Below, in pieces: positions 1,640-25,543 of a stretch of 27,151 bases of DNA. How positions within the stretch are numbered: position 1 is the first letter of the stretch; each line of letters opens with the position of its first letter. This DNA comes from a virus, in the IMG/VR virus record IMGVR_UViG_3300029908_000121, positions 1-27,151 of that record. The stretch is one strand, 5' to 3'. A program made the translations under genes and the position numbers. Below the pieces are notes generated by a model. It searched no databases, was not told the DNA's origin, and was given only the letters and a program-made list of their open reading frames with translations.

Positions 1640-1891
1640 ATGCTGCTCGGTTCAGACGAATACATCTTAGACGAATCGCAAGAACTAAACATCCTTGCTG
1701 ATAAGAAACGCGCAATCCAACTTGCTTTTAAGCGGTTTAATTTAGAGAACGTAGATTTTATTGCTGTTCAACTTGGAATATCAGGAAAAACTTTGTTTCG
1801 CTATTTGGATTATTTTGGTTTAAGAGGATTGATTGGAGAAAATAGGAAAAATCTTAGAGAGTATAAGAAAAACAAACTAAAACAAAAATGA
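1640..1891 (+). CDS. Small Fis-type helix-turn-helix protein
   Basis: This 83-aa protein has a C-terminal segment (about 27-68: AIQLAFKRFNLENVDFIA, then LGISGKTLFRYLDYFGL) that matches the Fis/NtrC-type HTH pattern, in which a helix is followed by LGIS..TL.R.L..FGL. The last 15 residues are very basic (NRKKNLREYKKNKLKQK region), as in DNA-binding tails. It overlaps the next gene by ATGA, so it is translationally coupled to the methyltransferase. It may regulate this operon or assist DNA recognition; both roles are inferred from context. Confidence 0.65.
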   Translation: MLLGSDEYILDESQELNILADKKRAIQLAFKRFNLENVDFIAVQLGISGKTLFRYLDYFGLRGLIGENRKNLREYKKNKLKQK

Positions 1892-2604
1892 AATCCGAAA
1901 CCTTCTGCATGGACAACTTAGATTTTCTTAGGAATTGTCCAGATAAAAAATACGATGTTGCTGTTGTTGATCCAGAATATCTTGATAAGAATCAGCCAAA
2001 CCAATTTATGAGAGCTAAGGGTGGTATGATAGATTGGAAAGGTTCACCTAAAGAGGAATATTTTTATCATCTTTTTAGGGTTAGTCGCGAACAAATCATT
2101 TTCGGTGGAAATTATTTTACGTACTTGCTCGATTTTTCTGTGTTCGCAGAAAGCCAAGATGTTATAGATATAAAACCGTTTCTTTCATCAAACGGAAATT
2201 GGATAATTTGGGATAAAAGGATTGCATTTGGAATGAACTATGCAATGTACGAGATGGCATGGACATCAATTAAAAAAGTAGGAAAGATATTTGAATTAAG
2301 TCCTGTTGGAAAATGTAGCGATTGGCACTCTACTGGAAAGCCAATGGAATTGTATCATTGGATTTTCAAGAATTACTTATTAGATTTTAAGGAGAAAAAC
2401 GGCGGGTTTTTAAGCATCTTAGACACCAATCTCGGCTCTGGCTCATCCAGGAAAGCTGCATTAACTTTAGGATTTGATTTTACAGGAATAGAGATTAACG
2501 AAAAATATTATAAAAAACAAGAGGAAGATTTTGCTTTGTACTATGAGAAAAATAGGATGTTTCTTCCTGCTTTAGATATTGAATTTAGTTTAGATAGTTT
2601 GTAA
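1888..2604 (+). CDS. DNA methyltransferase, beta-class (N6-adenine/N4-cytosine type)
   Basis: It transfers a methyl group from S-adenosylmethionine to DNA. Motif IV DPEY (D28-Y31, from the usual DPPY) is near the N-terminus. The motif X-like block HSTGKPMELYHWIF is at about 147-160. The SAM-binding motif I, DTNLGSGSS (179-187), with following GIEINEKYY, is near the C-terminus. That IV-then-I order defines the beta class. The 238-aa length and weak central region suggest a solitary enzyme. No restriction endonuclease is adjacent, so self-protection or epigenetic control by the phage is likely. A VRR-NUC nuclease lies 1.2 kb downstream in the same run. The Pro to Glu change in DPPY is unusual but occurs in active phage enzymes. 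Confidence 0.85.
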   Translation: MKSETFCMDNLDFLRNCPDKKYDVAVVDPEYLDKNQPNQFMRAKGGMIDWKGSPKEEYFYHLFRVSREQIIFGGNYFTYLLDFSVFAESQDVIDIKPFLSSNGNWIIWDKRIAFGMNYAMYEMAWTSIKKVGKIFELSPVGKCSDWHSTGKPMELYHWIFKNYLLDFKEKNGGFLSILDTNLGSGSSRKAALTLGFDFTGIEINEKYYKKQEEDFALYYEKNRMFLPALDIEFSLDSL

Positions 2605-2622
2605 CATTTAAAAAAAATAAAA

Positions 2623-3132
2623 ATGAAAAATCAAGAAAAAAGAGAAGAAAAAATTGAGTATCATTCTGGATTTCTTAGTCCAGAAAAAGCTGACGAACTT
2701 GAATCCGAAATAACAAAACTCAAAAAAGATTTAGAAACACAAGAGTATGCTTATTCGAGATTGAACCAAGAAAATCAAGGACTGCATCAAAAGCATAATT
2801 CTTTACTTCAAACAAATAGAGATTTAATTACAGGAAATGATGAAATAAATTCTAAACTCGAATCCCAAAAATTTCTAAACAAACAACTTTTAACATCTAA
2901 TTCTAATTTGAATAACGAGATTCAAGACAAGGAAAGTATAATACTTAGTTCAAAGCAAATGCTTAGGATTGAGGTTTCTGAACGGGAAAAGAAGATTACG
3001 GAGCTTAATGCGCTTTTAATTCGTTTCCAGGATTTAGATAAATCACATACTTTTTGGAAGGCACTTGCAATATCTTCTATAACATTATTTGGAATAACTT
3101 TAACCTTACTTTTAACTAAACTTTTCAACTGA
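2623..3132 (+). CDS. Coiled-coil protein with C-terminal membrane anchor
   Basis: The protein has 169 aa. Residues about 20-140 are dominated by heptad-like Leu/Glu/Lys/Gln and are predicted to be one long coiled coil (e.g. ELESEITKLKKDLETQEY). The last 25 residues form a single hydrophobic helix (FWKALAISSITLFGITLTLL..) with a short basic/aromatic end, so it resembles a tail-anchored membrane protein with its coil in the cytoplasm. The stop overlaps the next start (TGATG). I see no recognisable family. Possible roles include a membrane tether for a phage complex or a superinfection factor; neither is supported beyond topology. Confidence 0.7.
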   Translation: MKNQEKREEKIEYHSGFLSPEKADELESEITKLKKDLETQEYAYSRLNQENQGLHQKHNSLLQTNRDLITGNDEINSKLESQKFLNKQLLTSNSNLNNEIQDKESIILSSKQMLRIEVSEREKKITELNALLIRFQDLDKSHTFWKALAISSITLFGITLTLLLTKLFN

Positions 3133-8854: not shown

Positions 8855-9180
8855 ATCAACTTAGTTTTAGGATTTTCGCAAAGTGTTGTGCTTTTTTGGA
8901 TATTAACAGGTTGTTGAAACATCAAACAAACTAAATAATTTCCTAAGTCGGCTATAAATTCATCGGTTGCATCACATTCTTTAGCCATCAGAGCGGCAAT
9001 TAATTTAGCTTTATGATATTCAAATTCGTACATCCATTTTGGAAAGTCGTCTTTAATTTTCCAATCCCAAATCGAGTTCTTAGTTTTTTCATTTTCCGTT
9101 AGTTCGTTTTGCATCCTATGTGCAAAAGCAATAATTCTATCGTCAATGAAAACTTCTTTGCCGTCTATTTGTAGTATCAT
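8851..9180 (-). CDS. Hypothetical helical protein
   Basis: This 109-aa protein contains helices with conserved-looking acidic residues (AALMAKECDATDEFIADLGNY). This faintly resembles the E..D helices of all-alpha NTP pyrophosphatases, but the ExxE part is not evident, so I do not assign it. It begins in an ATGA overlap with a 39-aa ORF and sits between thyA and dNMP kinase, which suggests a link to nucleotide metabolism. Confidence 0.55.
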   Translation of the reverse strand: MILQIDGKEVFIDDRIIAFAHRMQNELTENEKTKNSIWDWKIKDDFPKWMYEFEYHKAKLIAALMAKECDATDEFIADLGNYLVCLMFQQPVNIQKSTTLCENPKTKLI

Positions 9181-9296
9181 ACGTAAGCAGTTATATAGTT
9201 ATATTTAGAATCATAACACTCATGATTTTTACATTCATCGTAAGTTCCTACAAATAGTAGTTTTTCGTCCGATATTCTTCTAATACAATAAATCAT
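9177..9296 (-). CDS. Small coupled protein (39 aa)
   Basis: This short ORF fills the gap between thyA and the 109-aa gene. Its ATG (9296-9294) overlaps the thyA stop as ATGA, and its own stop (9179-9177) overlaps the next start as ATGA, so both junctions show translational coupling. The product starts MIYCIRRISDEKLLFVGTYD and includes CKNHEC, a possible metal-binding pair with a third Cys near the start. The VGTYDEC segment resembles the small beta-alpha proteins found in many phages. Function unknown. Confidence 0.6.
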   Translation of the reverse strand: MIYCIRRISDEKLLFVGTYDECKNHECYDSKYNYITAYV

Positions 9297-10342
9297 TTTA
9301 ATCCAGTTGAAAGTTTAGCTTTAATTGATGGTTGTGGGTTGTATCCTTCTAATCGGAAGTCGTAATGTGCCATTGAATTTATAAAATCGTCCAATGTGTA
9401 TCTACCGGAAAGAAATTTATCGTAATTGTCCGGCAAATATCCTTCTTTGTTTCTTTGCCAACATTTTAAAGTCGGTAGTTGCGATGGTTGACGATAAAGT
9501 TGTTCATCAACCGCAGCTAAATGATTTTCGTATATATGCACATCTCCAAATGTATGAATTAAATCACCTGGAATAAATCCGCAAATTTCGCAAAGTATGT
9601 GTGTCAACAAAGCGTAAGATGCGGTGTTATACGGAACGCCAAGAAAAACATCCGCGCTTCGTTGGTACATTGAGCAATCTAAGTAGTATTTTGGGATTAA
9701 TTCCAAAGCTGAATCTAAATCATTGTCTTTTGTTTCTATTGGACACATTTGTATCCTATCAGATTGGTGTATCGGCCTACAATTAAATTGCGCAATCACA
9801 TGACACGGAAATAACGCCAAATCGTTATAGTGTGCCGGATTTAAAGCGGTAAGCATGTGCCGCCTACTTTCAGGATTTTTTTTCAGGTTGGAAATTAGTT
9901 CTGATATTTGGTCAATACCATCCCACTTGCGCCACAATCTACCATATTGCCAACCGCAATCGCCAAGTGTATAATTTTGTATATTTTGATTTGATTTAAA
10001 TCCTTGATTTACGCCAGTAACAAACAAATCGAATGAAATTGGTTTTATGTTTTGTTGATTACAAACCTTAGCGTAGTAGTTATATGCATCCTCATTCCAA
10101 ATATTACATCCATTATCTACAAGGAATTTAATATTTGTATCACCACGCAAAAACCAAATCAATTCCGTAGCTATATTTTTAAAGCTAACTTGCTTTGTGG
10201 TTAGAATTGGAAATCCTTCACTAAGGTTATACCGATATTGCGCACCGAATAAAGATAAAGTTCGCGGCATATTTTCTCTTGCTTCGTTTTTCCAAGTTCC
10301 TTCAGATTTGATTTTGCGAAGTAAGTCTAAGTATTGTTGCAT
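9293..10342 (-). CDS. thyA: Thymidylate synthase (ThyA-type) with two insertions
   Basis: It converts dUMP and methylene-tetrahydrofolate to dTMP. The catalytic cysteine is C180 in ALFPCHVIAQF. Phosphate-binding Arg160-Arg161 (ESRRHM), the PYNTASYALL block with Asn239 and GDVHIYENH (266-274) are all present. The length is 349 aa compared with about 264 in E. coli. The extra length comes from insertions at about residues 90-125 (after NEDAY) and 189-215 (after QFNCRP). The N-terminal phosphate loop is also altered (KNEARENMPRT instead of the common R-T-G-T). The core motifs look intact, so it is likely active. It is coupled to the next small ORF by ATGA. Confidence 0.95.
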   Translation of the reverse strand: MQQYLDLLRKIKSEGTWKNEARENMPRTLSLFGAQYRYNLSEGFPILTTKQVSFKNIATELIWFLRGDTNIKFLVDNGCNIWNEDAYNYYAKVCNQQNIKPISFDLFVTGVNQGFKSNQNIQNYTLGDCGWQYGRLWRKWDGIDQISELISNLKKNPESRRHMLTALNPAHYNDLALFPCHVIAQFNCRPIHQSDRIQMCPIETKDNDLDSALELIPKYYLDCSMYQRSADVFLGVPYNTASYALLTHILCEICGFIPGDLIHTFGDVHIYENHLAAVDEQLYRQPSQLPTLKCWQRNKEGYLPDNYDKFLSGRYTLDDFINSMAHYDFRLEGYNPQPSIKAKLSTGLK

Positions 10343-10358: not shown

Positions 10359-10589
10359 TTATAATTGCCTTGATGTAATTTTCGATGTGTTGTGTTTAAT
10401 AATTATTGTTGTAGCATCTTTTTCGAGTTCTCTCAAAGTAAACTTATTACTGATCCTTGCTGGCAATGATTCTTTAGCAATAGTTGCTGCCTCTTTTTCA
10501 TCAATAGCCTTTATGATTACAATAAAATCGCAATCCGATCCGCCATCGTCATGCGTGTTATTTACGGTTGCTAAAAATAATCTGGTCAT
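10359..10589 (-). CDS. Hypothetical small protein upstream of thyA
   Basis: The protein has 76 aa from ATG 10589 (MTRLFLATVNNTHDDGGSDC). An in-frame TTG at 10625 would start inside the tRNA-like T-arm, so I reject that longer form. The sequence has a beta-strand/helix pattern (DFIVIIKAIDEKEAATIAKE) typical of small alpha/beta proteins of unknown function. It lies 16 nt upstream of thyA and directly downstream of the structured RNA region, which could act as its leader. Confidence 0.6.
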   Translation of the reverse strand: MTRLFLATVNNTHDDGGSDCDFIVIIKAIDEKEAATIAKESLPARISNKFTLRELEKDATTIIIKHNTSKITSRQL

Positions 10590-10601
10590 TTTTAAGTTTT
10601 T

Positions 10602-10674
10602 GGGATTCACTTGGAATCGAACCAAGTTCTAATTTCGCTAAGGATTAAATCCTTCTACTTTTAGCTTTACATCC
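10602..10674 (-). tRNA. tRNA-like element, UUA anticodon-like loop, reduced D-arm
   Basis: On the - strand this has a perfect T-arm: stem CTTGG / CCAAG around the loop TTCGATT. The acceptor GGATGTA / TGAATCC pairs at 6 of 7 positions (one G-A mismatch, one G-U), at exactly the right distance for a 73-nt tRNA. A 4-bp hairpin AAGG-ATTTAAT-CCTT has a U-turn T and would present UUA, complementary to the stop codon UAA. The D-arm is reduced to 3 bp (CTA-AAAG-TAG) and about 13 nt separate the anticodon-like and T-arms. It is therefore either a degenerate tRNA or an unusual tRNA-like RNA. No CCA follows. Confidence 0.5.
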
Positions 10675-10728
10675 GGTTTTATCACCAAAAGCCATTCCGA
10701 TTAAGGATATGGCTTAGGTTGTATGGTT
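10675..10728 (-). other. Alternative hairpins between two cloverleaf elements
   Basis: On the - strand, hairpin A pairs AAGCCAT with ATGGCTT plus TCC with GGA around TTAATC, with one bulged base (10689-10715). Hairpin B pairs GG(C)TTTT with AAAACC around GGTGAT, starting in the 3' half of A, so the two cannot form together. Such exclusive pairs are seen in attenuators and riboswitch expression platforms. No ORF is present. Confidence 0.45.
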
Positions 10729-10795
10729 GTTTGCGGCTATCTGAATGATATCCAACAACTTATTGGTAGTTTAGGGCTACTAAACAATCGCAAAC
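10729..10795 (-). ncRNA. 67-nt four-way-junction (cloverleaf) RNA element
   Basis: A closing 7-bp stem GTTTGCG / CGCAAAC encloses three perfect hairpins. On the - strand in order these are GTTTAG-TAGCC-CTAAAC, CCAA-TAAGTTG-TTGG and TATC-ATTCA-GATA. The size and shape are tRNA-like, but there is no T-loop consensus, no D-loop GG and no U-turn before the anticodon position, so it is not a standard tRNA on either strand. It lies right after the exonuclease stop in the - strand transcript. TTTTT follows the closing stem on the + strand. The structure is read from the sequence; its function is unknown. Confidence 0.55.
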
Positions 10796-10803
10796 TTTTT
10801 AAA

Positions 10804-12522
10804 TTACATCTTACTAACATCAATATTAATTCGCTCCTTAATTTTATTTATCTCTTCCTTAGTATTAATTTCTATTTGCTTATTTAGTTCAGCCCTAAAA
10901 GTAGGATTTCTATCAACAACTATACGATTAGATAAGTAGACTGTCCGAATACTTTGGTTATCCAAAAAGTTCATCTGGTTTCGGATTTCTACAAGCCTTT
11001 CAGCATCACCTTCAACTGGTATTGCCGTTGGGATTGAGAATTTCTCCTTAGCAACTGGAGCAGGTTTTGATTTAGATTGTTTTGGTGGCTCTGGTGTTGA
11101 TAGCTTAGTTTTGTGTTTATCCAAATAGGATTTTAGTTCTTGGTTTTGCTCCCAAAATCCATCTTCGTCGTTTTTATCCATGTAAAATTCTACGCACTCC
11201 ATTGCTGATTTGAAGGAGTCAATCAAGCCAGTTAAAGGATGTGAGAAAACTTCCTCTTTCTCAGCTTCAGAAAATCTCTCCTGTTCAATCTCCGAGTTTT
11301 CTTGCGAAGCAGGCGCATCCTGTATTTCTTGCGATTGATTGGCATCTTCTTGTTTTGTTCGTGTTTTTAAGAAATCAAATTGCTCTTTAGTTAATTCTGT
11401 TACTTCGTCAACATATCCGCCTTCAAAAGCAAATCCCTGCTCCGATTCAACAACTTCTTTCAACATTTCTGTTATTGCATCCTCAATTTTTTCTGACCTT
11501 TCAACTACATCACTTATTTCTTTTTGCTCGGATTTCCACTTTTCTCCAGTTTCTCTCTCCCATTCAGAAATCGCGTAGTTGTTTAGCCACTTGCGAGAAA
11601 TCTCTATCCTGGAGCAAAGGTTAAGATAGGCGGCTTGGTCATATTTAACCTCAAAAGAAATAATCCTTGCCCTCAACGGTAAATCTTCCGGAACTTTTAC
11701 TTTACGCAAAAATTCCAAACAAGCATCCTGATATTCTGGATTTTGTTCTTGGTCTTTTCCGAATTTATATAAAATGCGTTTGTATTCATCTTCAACTAAT
11801 CCTTGAGGCATATCAACAAGGCAATATCTAAGTATAAAGCGAGATACTCCATAAAGCGCGCAGTAAACGATTCCTTGCCAATAATATATCGCATTTTTTA
11901 TTGACTGTTCGACATCTTTTAATGAATCTTCTCCATTTTCTGCCTCGTAAACATTTTTACCAATTTCTATTAAATCGATAGTGTGAGGCTGGAAAGTTTC
12001 TAAACTCCAGCAAGATTTAACATCCTGTACCATTTCTGGAGCGTCAAGCGGATAGAGAATATCACATTCGCCTTCTACGTGTTCATTATATTTTCTATGT
12101 TGTATGCCTGATTCCTCGCACCATTTTTTATATGATACATAAAATTCCTCATCAACTTCCCTCAAAAGCGCGATAGAGTCATCCTCTTTTAACTTTCCGT
12201 TTTCAACGTACTTGTTATCAATATCTTTCTTTATACCAAAACGCTTTTGTAGATAGCACTCAAGAAGATAAGAAATAGCAGTATCAGATAAAACTATGTC
12301 ATCTTTGTGCGCTTGAAGTTCTGGAAGAGATTGCCTTAGTTTGTTTAAAGCTGTTACTTGAGAGGATGTTAATTTCTTTTCGCTGTTTTCGTATCCTGTT
12401 ATTTTCTCTTGGCACTCTTGATACTTCTGCATCGGACTTTTTCCTCTCGGATTAGTCATCAGTTTTCCGCATGAAGATGCTCGGAATGTGTAGGTTGAGA
12501 AATCTATTGGTTTTTCAAGCAT
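10804..12522 (-). CDS. YqaJ-like exonuclease (PD-(D/E)XK recombination nuclease)
   Basis: It probably resects double-stranded DNA ends to make single strands for the neighbouring annealing protein. The nuclease core reads E150-GEC-D154-ILY, then D167-V-K169 (VQDVKSCW), i.e. the D...(D/E)xK pattern. It is followed by the helix NAIYYWQGIVYCALYGV and VDMPQGLVEDEYKR, typical of phage YqaJ/lambda-exo-like enzymes. The 572-aa length is well above the usual 200-350 aa. Residues about 345-570 form an extra C-terminal region rich in Glu, Ser and Pro (probably partly disordered linkers) with a coiled end. Its start overlaps the upstream gene by 8 nt. Confidence 0.8.
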   Translation of the reverse strand: MLEKPIDFSTYTFRASSCGKLMTNPRGKSPMQKYQECQEKITGYENSEKKLTSSQVTALNKLRQSLPELQAHKDDIVLSDTAISYLLECYLQKRFGIKKDIDNKYVENGKLKEDDSIALLREVDEEFYVSYKKWCEESGIQHRKYNEHVEGECDILYPLDAPEMVQDVKSCWSLETFQPHTIDLIEIGKNVYEAENGEDSLKDVEQSIKNAIYYWQGIVYCALYGVSRFILRYCLVDMPQGLVEDEYKRILYKFGKDQEQNPEYQDACLEFLRKVKVPEDLPLRARIISFEVKYDQAAYLNLCSRIEISRKWLNNYAISEWERETGEKWKSEQKEISDVVERSEKIEDAITEMLKEVVESEQGFAFEGGYVDEVTELTKEQFDFLKTRTKQEDANQSQEIQDAPASQENSEIEQERFSEAEKEEVFSHPLTGLIDSFKSAMECVEFYMDKNDEDGFWEQNQELKSYLDKHKTKLSTPEPPKQSKSKPAPVAKEKFSIPTAIPVEGDAERLVEIRNQMNFLDNQSIRTVYLSNRIVVDRNPTFRAELNKQIEINTKEEINKIKERINIDVSKM

Positions 12523-14675: not shown

Positions 14676-14921
14676 ATGTGGCAAAACAGGCATTTTATGG
14701 AGCACCTTTTAGACATAGCGAAATTAAAGAAAGAGATTACAACAGAGTCAGTATCTGCTCAAAAATTAAATAGTTTTTTTGATGGAGCGGCAAGCGCATT
14801 GACGGATGAACAGATTGATGAACTTGAAAAATTAAACGAATCTAACTATAAATTAGTTAAATTTATTGTTGATTCTGCAAGAGAAAGAAAAGAAAAGATT
14901 AATGAAATAACTGCTGATTAA
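14676..14921 (+). CDS. Hypothetical small helical protein, first gene of replication operon
   Basis: The protein has 81 aa from ATG 14676, or 74 aa from ATG 14697 (MEHLLDIAKLKKEI). Either start is downstream of the predicted transcription start. It is charged and helical (ALTDEQIDELEKLNESNYKL, then ARERKEKINEI). Being first after the strong early promoter, it may be a regulator or an accessory of the clamp-like protein that follows 15 nt later. No family recognised. Confidence 0.6.
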   Translation: MWQNRHFMEHLLDIAKLKKEITTESVSAQKLNSFFDGAASALTDEQIDELEKLNESNYKLVKFIVDSARERKEKINEITAD

Positions 14922-14936
14922 AAACAACTTACTTTT

Positions 14937-16061
14937 ATGACCATAACTCTCCCCCAATCCCAAATAAAAGAATTTCTCAAACTTTCCAGCTATGTTGTAT
15001 CAGACCAAATTCTGATTGACAACAATCCTAATTACGGTTGTATAAAGGTTGAAATAGTTTTCGGGATGTGTTTTCTTTCTAAAACAAACCAATCAGAGTT
15101 TGTTCAATTTTCGTTTCCTATTATCGCCGAAGATACAAGTTTCCTTATCTGGGAAGAGCATCTAAAGTCATTAATGGAAGTTTCAAAAAAGGAGAACATA
15201 AGGATAGAGTTAAAACTTGAACATTCAACACAAGATATAACTGACGATTATTTTACTCCAAAATTTGGCAAACAAATTGGAGTTGATATTAAAACGTATC
15301 CTAAAATTCCTAAGCCACCTAAAGTTGGATTTAAACTAACTAAACGAATTTTGGATGTTTTATCAGTAGCTAAAGATAATATAGAGAAAAAGGATAATCT
15401 TCGTCCGTTTATGAATCACGTTCACATACGAGAAAGTTTTATCTGGGCTACGGATGGTTATGTTAACTTTACTTATGAATTTCCAGAAGTTTTAAACTTC
15501 CCTTTAATATCTTTGTCTGAATTAGAGTGTAACTTAATTTCTGGATTTGATGAGTGCGATATATTTCTCACTGATTCTTTTAACATCATTAAATATAAAA
15601 ACTGCCTTTACGCATCCAGGATAAAAGTAATGGAGAAAGATATGACAGAACTTCTTTTGAAGTTTAAATCTTGGGTAGATAAGAGTAAGTTTGTTAAAGT
15701 TCAGGTAAAAGATTTTAAAGACTTTTGCGCCAGTACGGTATCATTCACTAAAAAAATACAAAAGAATTTTAAGAACTCTGGATTGAAGTTGGTTAGGCAA
15801 GATACTATTCAATTTTTCTACAAGGATTCTGAAAATGAAATTGAAAATGTTTTGGAATTTCCGTGCGTATCTATTGGATTGCCGGATGGATACTCATTTC
15901 TATTTTCACATTCCAGATTTCTTAAAGTTCTTGATAAATTCGCTTATAAAGAAATTTGCTTATCGGATTCTGAAAATCCAACAGGTGGTGCTGCACCATT
16001 TGGGATATGGATTGAAGAAGATGGTGCTCTTTGTATAACCGCTGTTAAAATGACGATGTAA
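14937..16061 (+). CDS. Sliding-clamp-like protein (DnaN/beta-clamp fold)
   Basis: The 374-aa length is close to the roughly 366 aa of bacterial beta clamps. Three segments resemble clamp repeats: an N-terminal domain; a central start with RILDVLSVAKDNIEKKDNLR and IRESFIWATDGYV, like the 'RP.L.g.l...LvATDg.R' part of DnaN; and a C-terminal block with a YSFLFSHSRFLKVLDKF helix and strand ending CITAVKMTM, like the '...fN..yl.d.L......Y.vMPmr' end. Identity is low, so the call rests on length, order and these motifs. It would tether a DNA polymerase. No polymerase is in the window, so it may use a host enzyme or one encoded outside. Confidence 0.6.
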   Translation: MTITLPQSQIKEFLKLSSYVVSDQILIDNNPNYGCIKVEIVFGMCFLSKTNQSEFVQFSFPIIAEDTSFLIWEEHLKSLMEVSKKENIRIELKLEHSTQDITDDYFTPKFGKQIGVDIKTYPKIPKPPKVGFKLTKRILDVLSVAKDNIEKKDNLRPFMNHVHIRESFIWATDGYVNFTYEFPEVLNFPLISLSELECNLISGFDECDIFLTDSFNIIKYKNCLYASRIKVMEKDMTELLLKFKSWVDKSKFVKVQVKDFKDFCASTVSFTKKIQKNFKNSGLKLVRQDTIQFFYKDSENEIENVLEFPCVSIGLPDGYSFLFSHSRFLKVLDKFAYKEICLSDSENPTGGAAPFGIWIEEDGALCITAVKMTM

Positions 16062-16068
16062 ATAAAAG

Positions 16069-16133
16069 TGGATGTTGGTGTAATGGCAGCATACCCGTTT
16101 TTCGGGAGGATTAGTTCGAATCTTGACATCTAC
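16069..16133 (+). tRNA. Shortened tRNA-like element (probable degenerate tRNA)
   Basis: The acceptor TGGATGT / ACATCTA pairs at all 7 positions (one G-U). It is followed by a canonical D-arm: G-T-G-T / G-C-A-T stem with loop AATGGCA containing the GG of normal D-loops. An anticodon-like hairpin CCCG-TTTTT-CGGG and a T-loop GTTCGAATC follow. The element is about 7 nt too short: the anticodon loop has 5 nt, the variable region is nearly absent and the T-stem is only 3 of 5 paired. The anticodon cannot be assigned. It lies 7 nt after the clamp stop in the replication operon. Confidence 0.5.
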
Positions 16134-16181
16134 ACAAACGCAAAGCCGAAAGCGATTAGACGGCAAACTAAAAACAACACA

Positions 16182-16343
16182 ATGAAAAAATCAATTTTGG
16201 AGTTCCGTCAATTTCATCCTGGTACAGAAGGAGAAGAAGTATCTGATGCGCAAGTAAAAGGAGATGTAGAATATGAGGATAGCGAAGAGGAGGAGGCGGA
16301 AGATGAAGATGAAGAAGAAACTGAAGAATCAGAAGAGGATTAA
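16182..16343 (+). CDS. Small highly acidic protein
   Basis: The protein has 53 aa from ATG 16182 (MKKSILEFRQFHPGTEGEE). A longer in-frame reading from 16068 passes through the tRNA-like element and is rejected. The last 25 residues are almost all Glu and Asp (EDSEEEEAEDEDEEETEESEED). Such acidic tails are typical of DNA-mimic or chaperone-like small proteins and of phage inhibitors of DNA-binding enzymes, but the sequence does not prove a role. A strong terminator follows 23 nt after the stop. Confidence 0.6.
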   Translation: MKKSILEFRQFHPGTEGEEVSDAQVKGDVEYEDSEEEEAEDEDEEETEESEED

Positions 16344-17908: not shown

Positions 17909-18107
17909 ATCCCTCCTCGCAGAATCCCTCCACATAATATCATCTTGCCTATACACTCACAAGCAAGGATATTTCTTTATTGTTATTAACAATAAAGATG
18001 AGGTTTTTACTCTGGACAAATCCGAACTAACAAATCCGCCAAAACACGAAACTAATAATAAAATTCCATACACAAACAAAACACCTAAATTTACTGATTT
18101 CACTTAA
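17898..18107 (+). CDS. Hypothetical small protein with TTG start
   Basis: The protein has 69 aa beginning at TTG 17898, overlapping the preceding gene by 11 nt. The N-terminal half is hydrophobic (SLLAESLHIISSCLYTHKQG, then YFFIVINNKDEVF) and the C-terminal half is Pro/Asn/Thr/Lys-rich and probably disordered. The non-ATG start makes it less certain. Function unknown. Confidence 0.4.
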   Translation: MLVKSLLAESLHIISSCLYTHKQGYFFIVINNKDEVFTLDKSELTNPPKHETNNKIPYTNKTPKFTDFT

Positions 18108-18124
18108 TCTAAAAAAAATATATT

Positions 18125-18343
18125 ATGAATGTAAAAAAATGTACTGACGAATTAAATGTAAACGGAAAAATTACATCTTTAGTTGCGCACGATTTGGATG
18201 AAATGGAGTTACTTGAATCAGTAGCTACTTTGTTGTATAAAACTAAGTCGGTTAGGGATACAATAAACATCCTTGACAGAGAATCAAAAAGACAAACAAA
18301 CAACTCAAAATCAGACAAACGCGAATCTTTTACTAACTGCTAA
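18125..18343 (+). CDS. Hypothetical small protein coupled to helicase
   Basis: The protein has 72 aa with a central helical part (AHDLDEMELLESVATLLYKT) and a basic, polar tail (ESKRQTNNSKSDKRES). Its TAA stop overlaps the helicase ATG (TAATG), so translation is coupled. It may be a helicase partner, an inference from position only. Confidence 0.55.
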   Translation: MNVKKCTDELNVNGKITSLVAHDLDEMELLESVATLLYKTKSVRDTINILDRESKRQTNNSKSDKRESFTNC

Positions 18344-20016
18344 TGCCTACACCAATCCCATTCGATTACCAAGAAGAGGCAGTTCCAAAGATTGCTGAAC
18401 TTTTAAACCAGTTTGATTCTGGATTAATTGTTGCGCCAGGAGGCAGTGGCAAGAGCATGATGGCAAGTTTGATTACTTACCGTATCCTTCTAAAACGCCA
18501 AACCGGAAAAGTCTTATTTTTCACCCATCGTGATGAGCTTTTCAATCAGATTCGAGAAAGGATGCTTGAATTTGGAATTGTTACGCAAGGAATAAATCAA
18601 GAAACTACCTATATAAATCCTTCTTCAAGGGTTTTTATAATAATGGTAGAAACATTCAACCGAAGATGCGAACTTCCTGCCTTCTTAGCTAATTTTGAAG
18701 ATACTTTCCTATATCATTGTGACGAGGCGCATCGCTCTGACTTCAACAAGATTTTTAAACACTTTCCAAACTCTAAAAGATTGGGATGGACTGCAACTCC
18801 AATATCTGCTGTTAAAGCTCATCCGTTAAAAGAGTTTTATCAGTTTATGTTTGAGGTTGTTAAAGTATCTCACCTGCACGAACTAAACTCAGAAAATCCC
18901 AAAATAGGAGTAGTTCCAATCCAATGCTACCATTTAGGAAAGGTAGATAGAAGTAAGTTTGGAATTAAAGGCGGAGAATTTATAGAATCTCAAGTTAGTG
19001 AGGAATTTCGTAAAAAACTTCAAATAGATAACGTAATCAGTTCTTACTTTAAACTTGCTCGAGGATTGAAAACACTTTGTTTTGATGCTGATATAGAACA
19101 TAGCATTGATATGATGTATGCTTTTAAATCTGTTGGAATCAATGCAAGGCATGTAAATGGCGGCGGCAGTAAATGTAAAAAGTATCCTGATGAGGCTAAG
19201 GAATTTGGCAAAAAATCTTGGAGAAAGGATTGCCTAACTTGGCTAAAAAAAACTCCAGATGCCGTATTAGATAATGTAGGAATACTGACTACTGGATTTG
19301 ATGAAAAAAGCGTTGAGGCTGTTTTTATTAATAGCTCAATGCTTTCCAAATCCTTATATATTCAGAAGGTTGTTCGTGTTTCAAGACCATATCAATATCC
19401 AGATGGAACATGGAAAACTCAAGGGCTTTTACTTGACTTCGGAAACAATGCACCATCAGAAAAAGGTGGTGCTGGATTTGGTGATACTAATAAAGACGAG
19501 GATTGGGAGTATGAATTTAATCATCCTTATGAAAAAAAGCGCGAAGGCGTAGGAGGATACAAAACCTGCCCAAACTGCTCAAACTTAAATCCAGTTTCCG
19601 CTCGTTTCTGCACTGGATTTCTACTTGATTTTCTAACAGATTCTTATGTACAATGCGACTACGTTTTTCCTATCTCTGTTAAAGAAGTTGATTTAGTTCC
19701 GAGAGAAATGATTAAGTTTTACCAGGATAAAATTCAAGTTAGTTCAATCCTTATAGAGATAGAAAGGAATGGCTATAAAGCAGGAAGTGCATATCACAAA
19801 GTGCTTGACGGAATAGTGGGATTGGCTAAGGATTTAGGAGTTTACCTTGCTTCAGAGCAAATCTCATTTTTAGTAGAGATGGGAATTTCTAAAATCAAAG
19901 AGTTGGGTAAATTGACTGGTAAGAAAACCTTTAAGGAATCAGTAAAAGAAGATATCTTAAAGAAGTTGCAGGAAAAAGGATTTATTGTTAATATTAATGA
20001 AGTAAACCAAATTTAA
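18343..20016 (+). CDS. SF2 DEAH-box helicase with Zn-ribbon
   Basis: It is an ATP-driven DNA helicase or translocase. Motifs in order are: the Q-motif-like FDYQ (Q10); Walker A GGSGKS (33-38); DEAH (127-130) in YHCDEAHRSD; motif III-like GWTATP (148-153); motif V GILTTGFDEKSVEAV; and motif VI QKVVRVSRP. After the helicase core comes a Cys cluster (CPNCSNLNPVSARFCTG plus a later Cys), a probable zinc ribbon. The last 100 aa are helical. The 557-aa length and domain order fit phage DEAD/DEAH proteins that remodel replication or recombination forks (UvsW/RadD-like in role). It is the main enzyme at the end of the replication operon. Confidence 0.9.
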   Translation: MPTPIPFDYQEEAVPKIAELLNQFDSGLIVAPGGSGKSMMASLITYRILLKRQTGKVLFFTHRDELFNQIRERMLEFGIVTQGINQETTYINPSSRVFIIMVETFNRRCELPAFLANFEDTFLYHCDEAHRSDFNKIFKHFPNSKRLGWTATPISAVKAHPLKEFYQFMFEVVKVSHLHELNSENPKIGVVPIQCYHLGKVDRSKFGIKGGEFIESQVSEEFRKKLQIDNVISSYFKLARGLKTLCFDADIEHSIDMMYAFKSVGINARHVNGGGSKCKKYPDEAKEFGKKSWRKDCLTWLKKTPDAVLDNVGILTTGFDEKSVEAVFINSSMLSKSLYIQKVVRVSRPYQYPDGTWKTQGLLLDFGNNAPSEKGGAGFGDTNKDEDWEYEFNHPYEKKREGVGGYKTCPNCSNLNPVSARFCTGFLLDFLTDSYVQCDYVFPISVKEVDLVPREMIKFYQDKIQVSSILIEIERNGYKAGSAYHKVLDGIVGLAKDLGVYLASEQISFLVEMGISKIKELGKLTGKKTFKESVKEDILKKLQEKGFIVNINEVNQI

Positions 20017-20045
20017 AACCGCCAACAGGCACAAAACACACGATT

Positions 20046-20414
20046 ATGACAAATCAGGAAAAGAAAATTAAGGATTTAGAATCCGAAATTAAAGGATTCG
20101 CGCAATCAGAAACTGTTTACTTAGAGAAAATAAAACAACTCGAAGAAAAACTGAAATCATCCGAAAAGAAAATATTGGAACTTGAAGAGGATTTTAATAG
20201 TCCACTTGATATTCCAATAGATTTACTTTTTGATGTTTTGCCGGAAAATGAAGCTATAAATACACTATCCAGACTTTCTGCTAAACTTCACGGAAGGATT
20301 ACAGAAAATCTAACTCGTCTTAGAAACGAAACCGGATTACTTGAAAACAACCTTGAGATATTCGAGCTTAATGCAAAAAATATATCTCTTGGAAGAAACT
20401 TCAAAAAATCCTAA
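20046..20414 (+). CDS. Coiled-coil protein, last gene of replication operon
   Basis: The protein has 122 aa. Residues 1-50 are predicted coiled coil (KIKDLESEIKGFAQSE, then KIKQLEEKLKSSEKKI), followed by a helical part (AINTLSRLSAKLHGRI). Its TAA stop overlaps the stop codon of the convergent - strand gene. No family recognised. Confidence 0.6.
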   Translation: MTNQEKKIKDLESEIKGFAQSETVYLEKIKQLEEKLKSSEKKILELEEDFNSPLDIPIDLLFDVLPENEAINTLSRLSAKLHGRITENLTRLRNETGLLENNLEIFELNAKNISLGRNFKKS

Positions 20415-20596
20415 TTAGCTGAACTTTCTTTTTCGAGTTCGCTCAACTCTGATTTTAATTCATCAATTTTCTTTTCAGATGCAGTTTCCTCTTTAGGTGC
20501 TGCATCTTTTTTTTGCTCTACGTGAACATCTGTTCCGCCTATTGTCATGTGCTTCGTCATAGCCTTAGCCAAATCTTCGCTGTACTGATTTCTCAT
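20411..20596 (-). CDS. Hypothetical small coiled protein, end of late operon
   Basis: The protein has 61 aa with a Lys/Glu-rich C-terminal coil (EEKKIDELKSELSELEKE type) and an N-terminal part MRNQYSEDLAKAMTKHMT. It follows the lysis block and a weak terminator. Its TAG stop is embedded with the opposing TAA in CTAATTAG. Function unknown. Confidence 0.5.
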   Translation of the reverse strand: MRNQYSEDLAKAMTKHMTIGGTDVHVEQKKDAAPKEETASEKKIDELKSELSELEKESSAN

Positions 20597-20617
20597 TTTC
20601 TTTTGATTTTATTCGGT

Positions 20618-20640
20618 AAAAAGCCAGCCTAAGATTAGGC
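20618..20640 (-). terminator. Weak terminator-like hairpin after the lysis block
   Basis: On the - strand GCCTAA-TC-TTAGGC (20640-20627) is followed after 4 nt by TTTTT. The very short loop means 5 bp around a 4-nt loop at best. It could reduce transcription into the last small gene. Confidence 0.4.
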
Positions 20641-20663
20641 CAGCCGCTTACCTACATGATAAT

Positions 20664-21053
20664 TTAATTTCCTTTTAATACGCTATTGGCAGATACTGTT
20701 ACGTAAGGAGTAAGATATGCCGTTGGTGATGTTCCAACTCCGTGCATAGCTGCTGATACATTAGCTCCAGCAATAGCTATTAATCCTGGCTGCAATGATG
20801 CATCTACTGTTGAAAAAACCTTACCGAGAGTTGTTAAAATGGATAGTATAGCCTCTCTCGCCGGTTCTGTTTCTGGTACAAGTTTTGTAAAATCCGTTAC
20901 AGTTGAATTGTTTAAAAGTATTTCAACTTTAATGATTAAAGCATTTGCTTTCTTACAAACAACATCAATCTCTGATGGAAGTTTGTGTTCAATTTTGAGA
21001 ATAAAATTCTCGATGTCTGTTAGCACGATTTGTGCCTCTGTTTTTAAACTCAT
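20664..21053 (-). CDS. Hypothetical protein of the lysis region
   Basis: The protein has 129 aa. The N-terminal half is helical (TDIENFILKIEHKLPSEID, then ANALIIKVEILL). The C-terminal half is Ala/Gly/Ser/Thr-rich with a mildly hydrophobic stretch (GLIAIAGANVSAAMHGVG). No signal peptide or clear membrane helix is visible. It follows the holin-like gene, so a lysis or late-structure accessory role is possible. Family unknown. Confidence 0.5.
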   Translation of the reverse strand: MSLKTEAQIVLTDIENFILKIEHKLPSEIDVVCKKANALIIKVEILLNNSTVTDFTKLVPETEPAREAILSILTTLGKVFSTVDASLQPGLIAIAGANVSAAMHGVGTSPTAYLTPYVTVSANSVLKGN

Positions 21054-21103
21054 ATAGATAAATTTGCCCCTACTCTTTGATTGGATTTTCGGGTTACTCC
21101 AGT

Positions 21104-21346
21104 TTAGTTTTTTGGTGCAGATACCGCATCTATAAGTTTATTCGTCTGCTCTGCATGTTGAACATCTGAACTTGATTTAACAAACGAATTTGCGAAATCC
21201 TTAAACGCTACTACAAAAGCAACTACTATACCACCAGATACGCTATCGCTTACATGACTTTTTACAAAGTACATAAATACAAGTGCTACAAGGCAAAGCA
21301 ATGCGAAAACTCCTGATATTAATTGATTAAATGTTGGTTTTTGCAT
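21104..21346 (-). CDS. Holin-like small membrane protein
   Basis: The protein has 80 aa with two hydrophobic segments: about 9-28 (ISGVFALLCLVALVFMYF) and about 37-51 (VSGGIVVAFVVAFKDF), then a polar C-terminal tail. The size, topology and position directly after the GH24 lysozyme gene are those of class II-like phage holins that open the inner membrane to release the lysozyme. The family cannot be named from sequence alone. Confidence 0.7.
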   Translation of the reverse strand: MQKPTFNQLISGVFALLCLVALVFMYFVKSHVSDSVSGGIVVAFVVAFKDFANSFVKSSSDVQHAEQTNKLIDAVSAPKN

Positions 21347-21367
21347 TTTAAGTTTTTTTAAAGTTAA

Positions 21368-21823
21368 TTAAGATATTGGACTAAAGTATAAATCCGACTC
21401 AGCTTTCCTTCTTTTTACTAAATCTTCCAAAATATCTCCGCCGGCATAAACCCATTTACTGAATTGAGCGCGGATTTCAGATTCTAATTTCTTTCCCTCT
21501 ATCGCCAAAAGCAAATGAGATTTCAAAAACCCATCAGTTCCTTCATTGTAACAAAAAGAACAGATTGCATCATATTGGTTTTGATTCCAATTGATAGGCA
21601 AAGAATTTAACTGTCCTTCTATGTTTCGACTGATGTAATCTAAAAGATAACTTTCTGCTTGTTCCTTAGTTATCGCTTGGTCTTGCATGGTAACTCTCGT
21701 TCCATTAGGATATCTTATTGTACCATATCCGATAGTTGGTATTCCAACTTGATCTTTGTATGGATGTAGCACCAATCCTTCCTGAATTGTTATTAGGTCT
21801 ATTCCTTTTTGTGAGATTTTCAT
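21368..21823 (-). CDS. GH24 (T4-type) lysozyme / endolysin
   Basis: It cleaves peptidoglycan glycan strands for host lysis. The catalytic triad is visible in order as Glu15 (ITIQEG), Asp24 (YKDQVG) and Thr30 (IPTIGYG), matching T4 lysozyme E11/D20/T26. The NWNQNQYDAICSFCYNEG block is the conserved 'N..Q.dALvSF.fN.G' region. The length of 151 aa is normal. No signal peptide, so it depends on the adjacent holin-like protein for export. Confidence 0.95.
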   Translation of the reverse strand: MKISQKGIDLITIQEGLVLHPYKDQVGIPTIGYGTIRYPNGTRVTMQDQAITKEQAESYLLDYISRNIEGQLNSLPINWNQNQYDAICSFCYNEGTDGFLKSHLLLAIEGKKLESEIRAQFSKWVYAGGDILEDLVKRRKAESDLYFSPIS

Positions 21824-21864
21824 CGTCTTGTTGCTATTAAAAATTTTTAATCATTATTTATGCC

Positions 21865-22164
21865 TTAACGGAAATATCTGCGTGTTGCTATTAAAATTAT
21901 TTGATTTCTTATGGTATCTATGCTTCCGTATATTTCAGCGTGAATACGCCTGTTTTTTTCATCCGAAGCAATATCTTTTATGCTATCTCTGTATTGGTGT
22001 GCCGCTATCTTTTCTTCATAGCCATCCCATTTAACAACTTTAGCCTTAACATCAGTCCAAACAATACCTACTTTAAAAGACAAAATCATAGCAGCCGTTA
22101 GCGGGCTAAGAATCTTTAACCAGTCTTTCAACTCTTTATATCTGTCTTTTGCCGTGTCTGTCAT
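21865..22164 (-). CDS. Hypothetical membrane-anchored protein, lysis region
   Basis: The protein has 99 aa. One hydrophobic segment at about 19-37 (LSPLTAAMILSFKVGIVW) is followed by a charged helical tail (KWDGYEEKIAAHQYRD, then EKNRRIHAEIYGSIDT). That form, an N-terminal anchor plus a polar helical domain next to lysozyme and holin genes, is similar to i-spanin-like or holin-accessory proteins. No o-spanin partner is evident, so the call stays tentative. Confidence 0.55.
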   Translation of the reverse strand: MTDTAKDRYKELKDWLKILSPLTAAMILSFKVGIVWTDVKAKVVKWDGYEEKIAAHQYRDSIKDIASDEKNRRIHAEIYGSIDTIRNQIILIATRRYFR

Positions 22165-22183
22165 TTGTTAATGAGATTTTAGA

Positions 22184-22360
22184 TTAGATTGTCACCCATG
22201 TTAAGCCAACGGCATCCCACTTATACCGCGTTCCTGTCGCGAGGTCAGTGTAATAATTATTTAGGCCACGTCCTACGATGCTAACGGCGTTAGTATTTGG
22301 GTTGCCTTCCCCGTGCGTTTCTGCCCATGATGCTGATGTTGCTATTATTACTGGATTCAT
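22184..22360 (-). CDS. Small fibre/structural-like protein (58 aa)
   Basis: This short ORF starts at ATG 22360 and begins MNPVIIATSASWAETHGEGN. Its C-terminal part (YYTDLATGTRYKWDAVGLTW) has the 'D..tG..Y.Wdg..W' pattern seen in head- or tail-fibre and decoration proteins. It fills an otherwise empty 226-nt gap between the signal-peptide protein and the membrane-anchored protein. It shares the higher GC of that block, which supports it being coding. Confidence 0.6.
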   Translation of the reverse strand: MNPVIIATSASWAETHGEGNPNTNAVSIVGRGLNNYYTDLATGTRYKWDAVGLTWVTI

Positions 22361-22390
22361 TTTGTTTAATTTTTATGGTTAAGAAAATAA

Positions 22391-23110
22391 TTATGGAGTT
22401 ATTATTTGATACCCTATTGTTACCGTTATCAATCCGTCCGCACCTGCCGCACTTGGTGACAAATCAGCTTTTAGTTTCAAGTCTGTATTTGTGACATATT
22501 TCGGAGTGCCGATAACCGTAGATACGGATGCGCTTGCTAAATACGGCGAAAAAGATGTAATACTGATTCCAGAACCTGTATTACCAGCCATTGCATCATT
22601 AATAGCGGATATGCACGTAGCAATTGTGCTGCCCCCCTCATCGAGATACAGCATTCTATTCGCCCTGTAAGGCGTAGTTACGAAAGTGTATTTCCACACC
22701 GCCCATATCGGCACTATTATTGTCCCCGCTCCCTGAGCAGCGATCAACGTTACAGGCGTTGTAGTTACCGTGTTTACCTGTGCCGGAGTAAGATTTACGG
22801 TTACGGTATAAACAGGATTTAATACGGCAATAGTACCGCTCGTTGTAATCGTTCCGCCAGATAGTCCTGTTCCAGCGGTTATGGATGTAACAGTACCAGC
22901 ACCACTTGGATGAGCCGAAATACTATCAGAAATTGCTATTTTGATTTGAGCAGAGTTCCAATACCAACACAACGTATCTCCAGTTTGCAAATCAATTATT
23001 GCATACGGAGTATAATTCAATGGATATCTAACATTAACACTTTGATTTGTTAAAGTTTGACCAAAAGAAAATAATGGCAAAAACAATAAGGATATTAGTA
23101 GTTTTTTCAT
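22391..23110 (-). CDS. Tail-fibre-like protein with N-terminal signal peptide
   Basis: The protein has 239 aa. The start MKKLLISLLFLPLFSFGQ is a textbook Sec signal peptide with a probable cut after FG or GQ. The middle has GTVTSITAGTGLSGGTITTSG (about 73-93), a low-complexity Gly/Thr motif common in phage tail fibres. The C-terminal half is Thr/Val/Ala-rich and beta-like (SITSFSPYLASASVS region). The gene is more GC-rich than the rest of the window. Export of a phage fibre-like protein is unexpected; it could be displayed on the host or made only after lysis begins. A tail-fibre tip or an adhesin is the best guess. Confidence 0.6.
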   Translation of the reverse strand: MKKLLISLLFLPLFSFGQTLTNQSVNVRYPLNYTPYAIIDLQTGDTLCWYWNSAQIKIAISDSISAHPSGAGTVTSITAGTGLSGGTITTSGTIAVLNPVYTVTVNLTPAQVNTVTTTPVTLIAAQGAGTIIVPIWAVWKYTFVTTPYRANRMLYLDEGGSTIATCISAINDAMAGNTGSGISITSFSPYLASASVSTVIGTPKYVTNTDLKLKADLSPSAAGADGLITVTIGYQIITP

Positions 23111-23116
23111 TTTAAT

Positions 23117-24127
23117 TTAGTTTACTTGAGTTATTAAAGCCCCTATATCGTATGTGATGCTTCCTCCACCTGTTGCAAGTGTTGTTTTTACTGTAATGGC
23201 TGTACTTGCGTGTGCTCTTATCGTTATCGGAGAAAATGAATAATATCCGGTGGTAGATAACAATGCAGATGTTCCGCCGTTTGGCCACACCGTCATTTGT
23301 TGTGAGTTATTATTTTCATCTGTCCATGTAATCACAAATTCGAGAACATCTACACTTATAGCTGTTATGTTTACATATCCTTCTACCTCGAAAGTTTCAA
23401 GCGCAGGCACTGCATAAGCCGATACGCTGCTTAAAGCCCCCGTCTGTCCGGTTGCATCATTATTTACCCGTATCACCTTAAGACCGTTGCCCTGCGTTGC
23501 CGTTCCGTTGTATGTAGTAACAAATCCAAGAATATTTATGCTGCTCCAAAAACTGTGTTTGTTTCCATCGTTCATAAGTGCCTGCCCTGCATTTCCATTC
23601 GATAGTGTCAGATACCAGGCATCGCCTATTTTGATGCTATCTGATGCGCTTGCGCCTTTATCAATGAAATTCATCATTATAGTAGAATCGTGACCCTTAA
23701 TGAGCCATTTAGCGGTGCTATCTAATATATTTATCCATCCCACAGACCCTATTTCCCATCTATAAGACAAAAAATTAGTCATATTTATTCCGTATCCATT
23801 ACCATTTTGTATGTAGTTTCCACTCCATGTTTTAGATGTGTCGCTCCAGCTTTTTGAACCTCCGATTCCTGGAAGGATTGAATCATATAGATTCTGAATT
23901 AATTGAAGATATGACCTTCTTAATGAAGCGTCAGAAGTATTAAAAATATTATATGATTTAGGAACAAATCCTGGAGAGTAGTGTTTATATGGATAATCAA
24001 TTGTAGTATCTGTTTGATACGTAAGTTGTGTGATTTGCGTAGGGATACTTACTTGTGCGTTAGTTGTATGCACCGCCATAATCACCGTAAACACCAATAG
24101 AATCCGAATTAATGTAGTTTGTCGCAT
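23117..24127 (-). CDS. Large fibre-like protein with probable signal peptide
   Basis: The protein has 336 aa. Residues 1-25 (basic start, then LIRILLVFTVIMAV and TTNAQ) form a likely Sec signal peptide. An inner ATG at codon 17 (24079) would remove most of it. The remainder is rich in Ser, Thr, Asn, Gly and Tyr with beta-repeat character (SKTWSGNYIQNGNGYG, then GNAGQALMNDGNKHSFW). This is typical of tail fibre shafts and of Bacteroidota surface proteins. It overlaps the LysM-like gene by 68 nt and shares its transcription unit with the baseplate genes. It likely takes part in host recognition. Confidence 0.6.
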   Translation of the reverse strand: MRQTTLIRILLVFTVIMAVHTTNAQVSIPTQITQLTYQTDTTIDYPYKHYSPGFVPKSYNIFNTSDASLRRSYLQLIQNLYDSILPGIGGSKSWSDTSKTWSGNYIQNGNGYGINMTNFLSYRWEIGSVGWINILDSTAKWLIKGHDSTIMMNFIDKGASASDSIKIGDAWYLTLSNGNAGQALMNDGNKHSFWSSINILGFVTTYNGTATQGNGLKVIRVNNDATGQTGALSSVSAYAVPALETFEVEGYVNITAISVDVLEFVITWTDENNNSQQMTVWPNGGTSALLSTTGYYSFSPITIRAHASTAITVKTTLATGGGSITYDIGALITQVN

Positions 24128-24314
24128 AAGGATATCCTATAAATTTTGAATTAATGTTTTTTGCACCTGAATCAAAAAAGTAAGAGTTTAAAAGCGTTGT
24201 TGAACTTTTGATTTGATTGTCGTTTAAAAGTTTAACAAAGAAATCTAAGCTACCGTAAAGTTGCATACATAAGTCATAGTTACTCTGCCCTTGCTGCGCT
24301 CCCTGTGTGTCCAT
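24060..24314 (-). CDS. LysM-like tail/baseplate protein
   Basis: The protein has 84 aa. The N-terminal segment NYDLCMQLYGSLDFFVKLL has the 'D...q.yGs...f..l...N' pattern of LysM-like small tail proteins (gpX type) seen near gp25-like genes in Bacteroidota phages. The tail is Ser/Tyr/Gly-rich and ends GVYGDYGGAYN. Its last 68 nt overlap the fibre-like gene. A putative promoter lies about 40 nt upstream. Confidence 0.55.
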   Translation of the reverse strand: MDTQGAQQGQSNYDLCMQLYGSLDFFVKLLNDNQIKSSTTLLNSYFFDSGAKNINSKFIGYPYATNYINSDSIGVYGDYGGAYN

Positions 24315-24354
24315 GCTACCTATTTTAAGACCTTGTACCTTTACTCCATACTCA

Positions 24355-24362
24355 CAAAAGTA
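24355..24362 (-). promoter_or_regulatory. Possible late promoter (-7 element only)
   Basis: On the - strand TACTTTTG (24362-24355) matches TAnnTTTG, 41 nt before the LysM-like start, in a 105-nt gap. No TTTG is found at the right upstream distance, so it is a weak candidate. The gap also holds a perfect palindrome GTTTATAAAC (24392-24401). Confidence 0.3.
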
Positions 24363-24419
24363 CGTCTAATTTAGTCTTGTATTAGTTATTCGTTTATAAA
24401 CAAAAAAAACAATTCAATA

Positions 24420-24779
24420 TCAGTAATTAGGAAAAATAAAATCAGTATCAATGTTAAATCCATTACTTCCATCTGATGAAATAGCTCCATTTTTAACCAA
24501 ATATCCATCAGATTTCATTTGATCTGATAGGCTTGAGAAAACTAAATTTTTATTGTACTCTCCATTTTGATACTGAAATAATCCAAAACCCAATAAAGGA
24601 AATTGTTTTATCGCTCCCTTCCAAATAAATATAATATCAATTATGTGTTGATTGTCGCTGTTTCCGTATGGCGTTGGCAAATAAACTCCATCAATAATTG
24701 TATCGTCTAAAGGAAAATCGTAATAGACGTTTCCTTGAGAATCGGTATTTGGCTGTAAAAGAAAATCTTGTCTTGGCAT
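24420..24779 (-). CDS. Baseplate wedge protein, gp25/gpW-like
   Basis: This 119-aa protein contains SDNQHIIDIIFIWKGAIKQFPLLGFGLFQY (two overlapping segments, about 41-70). That matches the region of Bacteroidota-phage gp25-like proteins in which 'sDnQhie.il...kGe.kq.P..GvGl' is conserved. The N-terminal half carries short strands (DFPLDDTIIDGVYL). Members build the baseplate wedge at the tail end of contractile tails. Its position after spike and 69-aa genes supports the call. Confidence 0.65.
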   Translation of the reverse strand: MPRQDFLLQPNTDSQGNVYYDFPLDDTIIDGVYLPTPYGNSDNQHIIDIIFIWKGAIKQFPLLGFGLFQYQNGEYNKNLVFSSLSDQMKSDGYLVKNGAISSDGSNGFNIDTDFIFPNY

Positions 24780-24797
24780 GATTAGATTTTTTTAATT

Positions 24798-25007
24798 TTA
24801 AGATACAACAACCGTAGCCATAGTTCCGGTAACCGGACTTCCTGGACTTGCCGATACTAATCCTGTAGAATAAGTTAAAGTTAATGTTTTAACTGTATCA
24901 ATTATTGCTTGAGCTAATCTTGCATTAGCTACCGCTTGTGATTCAGTATCTCCTGCAGCGGCATTTGTAGCCATAGCAGATTCGATTAATGATGTCGTCA
25001 TTGCCAT
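24798..25007 (-). CDS. Small baseplate-region protein
   Basis: The protein has 69 aa and is Ala/Thr/Val/Ser-rich, starting MAMTTSLIESAMATNAAAG. It overlaps the spike gene by 10 nt. The sequence is simple and probably helical first, then beta. It may be a small structural or chaperone protein of the baseplate. No family recognised. Confidence 0.55.
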   Translation of the reverse strand: MAMTTSLIESAMATNAAAGDTESQAVANARLAQAIIDTVKTLTLTYSTGLVSASPGSPVTGTMATVVVS

Positions 25008-25540
25008 AAATCATCAAAGTTTGATTGGTCATTAGTTAAATCAGATAAATTATTTGGAGTTCCTGTTACACCTGCTCCATTTGTAAAAGTCATTGCTTGT
25101 ATGTGTTGAAAGAAAGAATCCATTAGTGTTTTGAAATCCTTACTTCCGTTCTTAATTGAGATTTTTCCTGAACTTAGAGTTATCTTAACCTCACCTTGTT
25201 CTATTAGGATATTTCCATCAACCATTTTAATTTCAGTATCTCCTACTATAAAATCTTTTTGGTCTAACCAAGTAGCAGATACGATATAAGGGTCAGTAAA
25301 ATCAGTCATTGCAACAGTTACAGTAGAATCTACTTGTGGAACAGACATATCTCCGTCAGATTGTTCTAACATAAAACGAACAGTAATTCCGTTTAAAGAA
25401 GAATCTATGCTGTCAACTACGCAGGTAAAACTTGGTAAATCTACGCTAACAACATTTCCATCAAATAGCTTAACATTAGCCTTACCATAAGTACCAGCTA
25501 TCTTTTGGATTAGTTCTTTTATTTCTATGTTGCTTACCAT
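24998..25540 (-). CDS. Baseplate spike protein (gpV/gp5-like OB fold)
   Basis: The protein has 180 aa. An N-terminal OB-like region (about 25-95: VVSVDLPSFTCVVDSID, then VDSTVTVAMTDFTDPYIVSA) has the pattern of contractile-tail spike proteins. It is followed by short repeating strands (IKMVDGNILIEQGEVKITL) as in the spike beta-helix. The C-terminus is polar. It sits between the hub and wedge genes, the usual place for gpV. It would form the membrane-piercing tip. Confidence 0.75.
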   Translation of the reverse strand: MVSNIEIKELIQKIAGTYGKANVKLFDGNVVSVDLPSFTCVVDSIDSSLNGITVRFMLEQSDGDMSVPQVDSTVTVAMTDFTDPYIVSATWLDQKDFIVGDTEIKMVDGNILIEQGEVKITLSSGKISIKNGSKDFKTLMDSFFQHIQAMTFTNGAGVTGTPNNLSDLTNDQSNFDDLWQ

Positions 25541-25543
25541 TTT

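Follow-up and report, generated by a model that had tools for sequence, protein, structure and literature searches.

A tRNA-like element, probably a decayed tRNA gene, in the gap between the exonuclease and thyA genes of an AT-rich phage

Our analysis suggests that a 214-nt non-coding gap (10590-10803) downstream of an exonuclease gene in an AT-rich phage is most likely an unremarkable border where two phage transcription units of the minus strand meet, and that it probably holds a degenerate tRNA gene at 10602-10674. A first-pass annotation had assigned the 194 nt studied here (10602-10795) to three structured RNA elements in a non-coding gap, and its coordinates and the non-coding status are correct. 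The window, meaning the whole stretch of DNA analysed, has 27,151 bases with 34% G+C and is a linear virus record in IMG/VR. Most of it is identical to a longer record of the same phage (IMGVR_UViG_3300029985_000115, 32,159 bases), and the nearest relatives by DNA and by exonuclease protein are mainly Bacteroidota phages, all distant. The exonuclease gene, a 76-aa open reading frame (ORF) and thyA are all encoded on the minus strand, and the features of the region are as follows.

9293-10342, minus strand: thyA (thymidylate synthase; Pfam PF00303, E 1.2e-83)
10359-10589, minus strand: 76-aa ORF, function not assigned, between the tRNA-like element and thyA
10602-10674, minus strand: tRNA-like element, probable decayed tRNA (Rfam RF00005 alignment, tRNA descriptor, B-box)
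10602, minus strand: discriminator C of the element (RF00005 alignment)
10603-10609, minus strand: acceptor 3' strand of the element (RF00005 alignment)
10610-10626, minus strand: perfect T-arm, CTTGG-TTCGATT-CCAAG (sequence and cmscan alignment)
10627-10638, minus strand: long variable region of the element (RF00005 alignment)
10639-10655, minus strand: anticodon arm of the element, anticodon UUA at 10646-10648 (RF00005 alignment)
10656-10665, minus strand: D-region of the element (RF00005 alignment)
10668-10674, minus strand: acceptor 5' strand of the element (RF00005 alignment)
10686-10715, minus strand: hairpin AAGCCAT(A)TCC-TTAATC-GGAATGGCTT then TT, probable intrinsic terminator (from the fold)
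10729-10795, minus strand: predicted four-way cloverleaf with a 7-bp closing stem, GUUUGCG/CGCAAAC (fold -16.4 kcal/mol)
10804-12522, minus strand: exonuclease gene (PHROG 5715 'exonuclease'), upstream of the gap

An alternative in-frame TTG at 10625 would put the start of the 76-aa ORF inside the T-arm. The start of this ORF also carries a weak match to DUF805b RNA (RF02914) at 10589-10612 (10.2 bits, E 6); a second DUF805b match, at 21067-21102 on the minus strand, scores 38.4 bits, above the cutoff, in a short gap before the predicted gene 20664-21053. The two records of the phage differ between 18428-25926 of the window and L071:1-7500, with 27 mismatches and 13 gap openings in 7.5 kb; the N-terminus of ORF 24060-24314 is among the differences, and the records are otherwise identical where compared. 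The longer record also encodes two low-complexity repeat proteins outside the window (L072:5508-6206 and 9126-9812), with repeats of the GGVIRGGVIR and CIDCSDC types.

The tRNA-like fold with a perfect T-arm reported at 10602-10674 exists on the minus strand. Rfam RF00005 aligns to 10674-10602 end to end (model positions 1-71 of 71) with 23.4 bits, below the family's gathering cutoff of 29 bits; the E value was 0.013 with 4227 families and 401 bases searched, from which we calculate ~2e-4 if the tRNA family alone is considered across the whole window. The T-arm has a 5-bp stem and a TTCRANN loop (CUUGG-UUCGAUU-CCAAG), and the acceptor stem has six of seven pairs, one of them G-U, with a mismatch at 5-68. 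The anticodon loop, AUUUAAU, has 7 nt with U33 and A37 on a stem of four pairs out of five, and its anticodon is UUA. Other features depart from the canonical form: both the acceptor and anticodon stems contain G-A mismatches, no CCA is encoded after the element, and the D-arm is a GCU-AAA-AGU minihairpin (3 bp and a triloop) that lacks GG (G18-G19), with A8 in place of U8. In tRNAs the elbow normally depends on a contact between the D-loop GG and the T-loop, which is impossible when the GG is missing. Reading the element as tRNA-Leu(UAA) through a shifted anticodon register was rejected, as the anticodon stem is then lost and position 37 is a pyrimidine.

We compared this score with those of known phage tRNAs. 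Intact tRNAs of Serratia phage BF score about 51-71 bits, except for one tRNA-Ser at 36.4, the annotated pseudo-tRNAs of the same phage score 44-58 bits, and three Flavobacterium phage tRNAs score 49-61 bits. ARAGORN reported no tRNA gene. The element's 23.4 bits, against mostly 44-71 in intact and pseudo-tRNAs, together with the negative ARAGORN result, point to decay. The phage tRNA genes and pseudogenes of Serratia phage BF, Flavobacterium phage immuto and Xanthomonas phage XacN1 share with it a T-arm, an acceptor stem, an anticodon arm and an intergenic position, but the element here scores below the BF and immuto tRNAs, BF pseudo-tRNAs included, has a degenerate D-arm and is isolated rather than clustered. 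The earlier suggestion of a decayed tRNA cluster is thus supported only for 10602-10674, and as a single element instead of a cluster. Against decay, no donor tRNA is known, nor an intact relative that would show the ancestral state.

Could the element instead be an accident of an AT-rich intergenic stretch, in which a terminator hairpin and fortuitous pairings accompany a coincidental T-arm? On energy alone the tRNA-like part is unremarkable (minus strand, z -1.82, 96 of 2000 shuffles as good). A tRNA descriptor (acceptor at least 6/7, T-stem 5/5, TTCRA loop, anticodon stem at least 4/5, U33 and R37) matches the window once, at the element, and at least one match occurs in 10% of dinucleotide-shuffled windows. 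Both results would fit chance, but the match to the covariance model is full-length and comes with acceptor and anticodon stems and a perfect B-box: GGTTCRANTCC occurs once in the window, in this element, with 0.078 occurrences expected per shuffled window. The descriptor's 23 matches in other phage DNA (527 kb) all lie in loci with tRNA genes, and a search of a Flavobacterium phage (50 kb, E up to 10) listed no unexplained tRNA match, which also argues against coincidence. The likeness to tRNA is better backed by the covariance model than by folding energy. We consider chance rather unlikely.

The single unannotated tRNA match (24.6 bits) in the 25 kb of Serratia phage BF searched overlaps a Y-RNA-like match. 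The latter, an unannotated YrlA-like hit at L074:10232-10324 with 40.3 bits (cutoff 69), is a possible phage Y RNA in a tRNA-rich region. Bacterial Y RNAs carry a tRNA-like module with a T-arm, a feature shared with the element studied here; the latter differs in having an acceptor stem and no match to YrlA (RF02553).

The anticodon UUA would decode UAA, the commonest stop codon of the phage, which ends 25 of its 41 predicted genes; a working UUA tRNA would therefore be costly. No recoded in-frame stops were found, the genes being open under table 11 (the standard code). The phage suppressor tRNAs described in the cited papers pair with UAG or UGA (PMC13037316, PMC12386605, PMC5852040) through CUA or UCA anticodons; they share a stop-reading anticodon with the element, but here the codon would be the main stop, there is no sign of recoding and the D-arm is too degenerate. 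Among the jumbo and other phage genomes of one survey, none recodes TAA (PMC13037316). A functional tRNA-like RNA, either a divergent ochre-type (UUA) suppressor or a tRNA-mimic processing signal between operons, would be consistent with the U33 and A37 of the loop and its 4-bp stem; divergent phage suppressors may escape detection, and CUA suppressors occur without apparent recoding (PMC12386605, PMC5852040). The stem mismatches, the D-arm, the absence of U8 and CCA and the use of UAA as the main stop all weigh against it, and we find it highly improbable. Still less probable, in our view, is the specific case of an expressed, highly divergent UUA (ochre) tRNA or mimic at 10602-10674 while UAA stays the phage's main stop codon. 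If the element is instead a decaying gene, its anticodon carries no meaning.

Ochre readthrough between neighbouring genes was also considered and rejected. One third of same-strand pairs with short gaps would be expected to be in frame; counting by hand gave 6 of 13, which does not clearly exceed that fraction and is not significant. The six neighbour pairs split in frame by UAA and a short gap lie at 1888-3132, 14676-16343, 21104-21823, 22391-24127 and 24998-26980.

The first-pass annotation held that pairing this dense was unlikely to be chance. Folded as RNA against 500 shuffles, the whole 194 nt does better than shuffled sequence on both strands, with z -3.58 on the minus strand (0/500 as good) and z -3.09 on the plus strand (1/500). 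Across the whole window, however, 8 of 278 minus-strand 194-nt windows (~3%) reach z <= -3.4, a further point for chance, so that on energy the claim holds only moderately: folding of the gap is in roughly the top few percent of the window, notable and not exceptional. Inverted repeats always fold about equally on both strands, and the near-equal folding seen here is expected of inverted repeats rather than of a strand-specific RNA. A 70-nt scan placed 26 of 1355 windows below z -3.5; the most extreme on the minus strand is the one at 17941, and an AT-rich hairpin (TCTTTATTGTTATTAACAATAAAGA) lies at 17935-18060 within the stretch 17909-18342.

Single parts of the gap were folded at exact coordinates with 2000 shuffles each. 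The middle hairpin region proposed from about 10675 does fold on the minus strand: 10675-10728 reaches -15.6 kcal/mol with z -4.36 (z -4.2 with 2000 shuffles, 3/2000 as good). Locally no fold is stronger than the hairpin at 10686-10715, which follows the exonuclease gene and is probably the terminator of the exonuclease operon. It is absent from the output of a consensus terminator scan, probably because its T-run is short: the U-tract is UUUU only, partly inside the stem. The cloverleaf at 10729-10795 likewise exists as a minus-strand fold (z -3.0), with an energy that 20 of its 2000 shuffles (1%) also attain; it has tRNA-like geometry without the sequence hallmarks of a tRNA, and is weak. 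We rejected it as a second tRNA: Rfam gives no match there, and by eye, on either strand, the loop at the anticodon position lacks U33 and no TTCRA T-loop lies in register.

A third proposal was that the 194 nt might be a leader controlling thyA. The whole-gap z of about -3.6 would be consistent with such a cis-regulatory leader, or with a conserved structured RNA, spanning the 194 nt, but the gap has no Rfam riboregulator match, a separate 76-aa ORF intervenes before thyA, and both strands fold alike. Homologues were not found. Protein searches of IMG/VR with the exonuclease, a 330-aa neighbour and the 76-aa ORF returned the same phage only, as did DNA patterns, exact or with gaps, that represented the T-arm, the anticodon arm and the cloverleaf. 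GTDB representatives gave no match, and in phages and plasmids the only matches were generic T-arms or short ones due to chance. A thyA search returned 65 other loci, and the phage thyA loci fetched (up to ~50% protein identity) contain no sequence similar to the gap. All copies of the gap recovered are identical, from the same phage in another record, leaving no variation for covariation analysis. Neither a thyA leader nor a new conserved RNA is supported, and we regard this reading as quite improbable. A Bacteroidetes-type -7 promoter (TANNTTTG) was not found on the minus strand of 10500-11200.

Outside the same phage, IMG/VR gave no match to the 24-25-nt T-arm/acceptor 3' sequence, and GTDB representative genomes gave no exact one. 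A prophage att site would match the 3' end of a host tRNA, provided that the host is among those genomes. No integrase was seen among the ORFs listed, part of which were searched against families.

The reading we favor is a unit boundary with a decayed tRNA gene. Transcripts of the exonuclease operon would then probably end at the hairpin at 10686-10715, with the putative tRNA remnant just downstream. The T-arm and acceptor stem would have survived in this remnant, while the D-arm would have shrunk to three pairs and the anticodon become UUA. The remnant is most likely neither aminoacylated nor used in translation; if it is transcribed, its T-arm/acceptor half may still be recognised by tRNA-processing enzymes. 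The upstream cloverleaf would be a 3'-UTR fold with no demonstrated role.

Phage tRNA remnants are already known, and one more changes little. The UUA element would matter only if it were expressed and charged, because the survey had no UAA-recoding phage and the described suppressors read UAG or UGA (PMC13037316, PMC12386605, PMC5852040). In that event, an expressed UUA tRNA or mimic might, for example, disturb host termination or signal RNA processing ahead of thyA.
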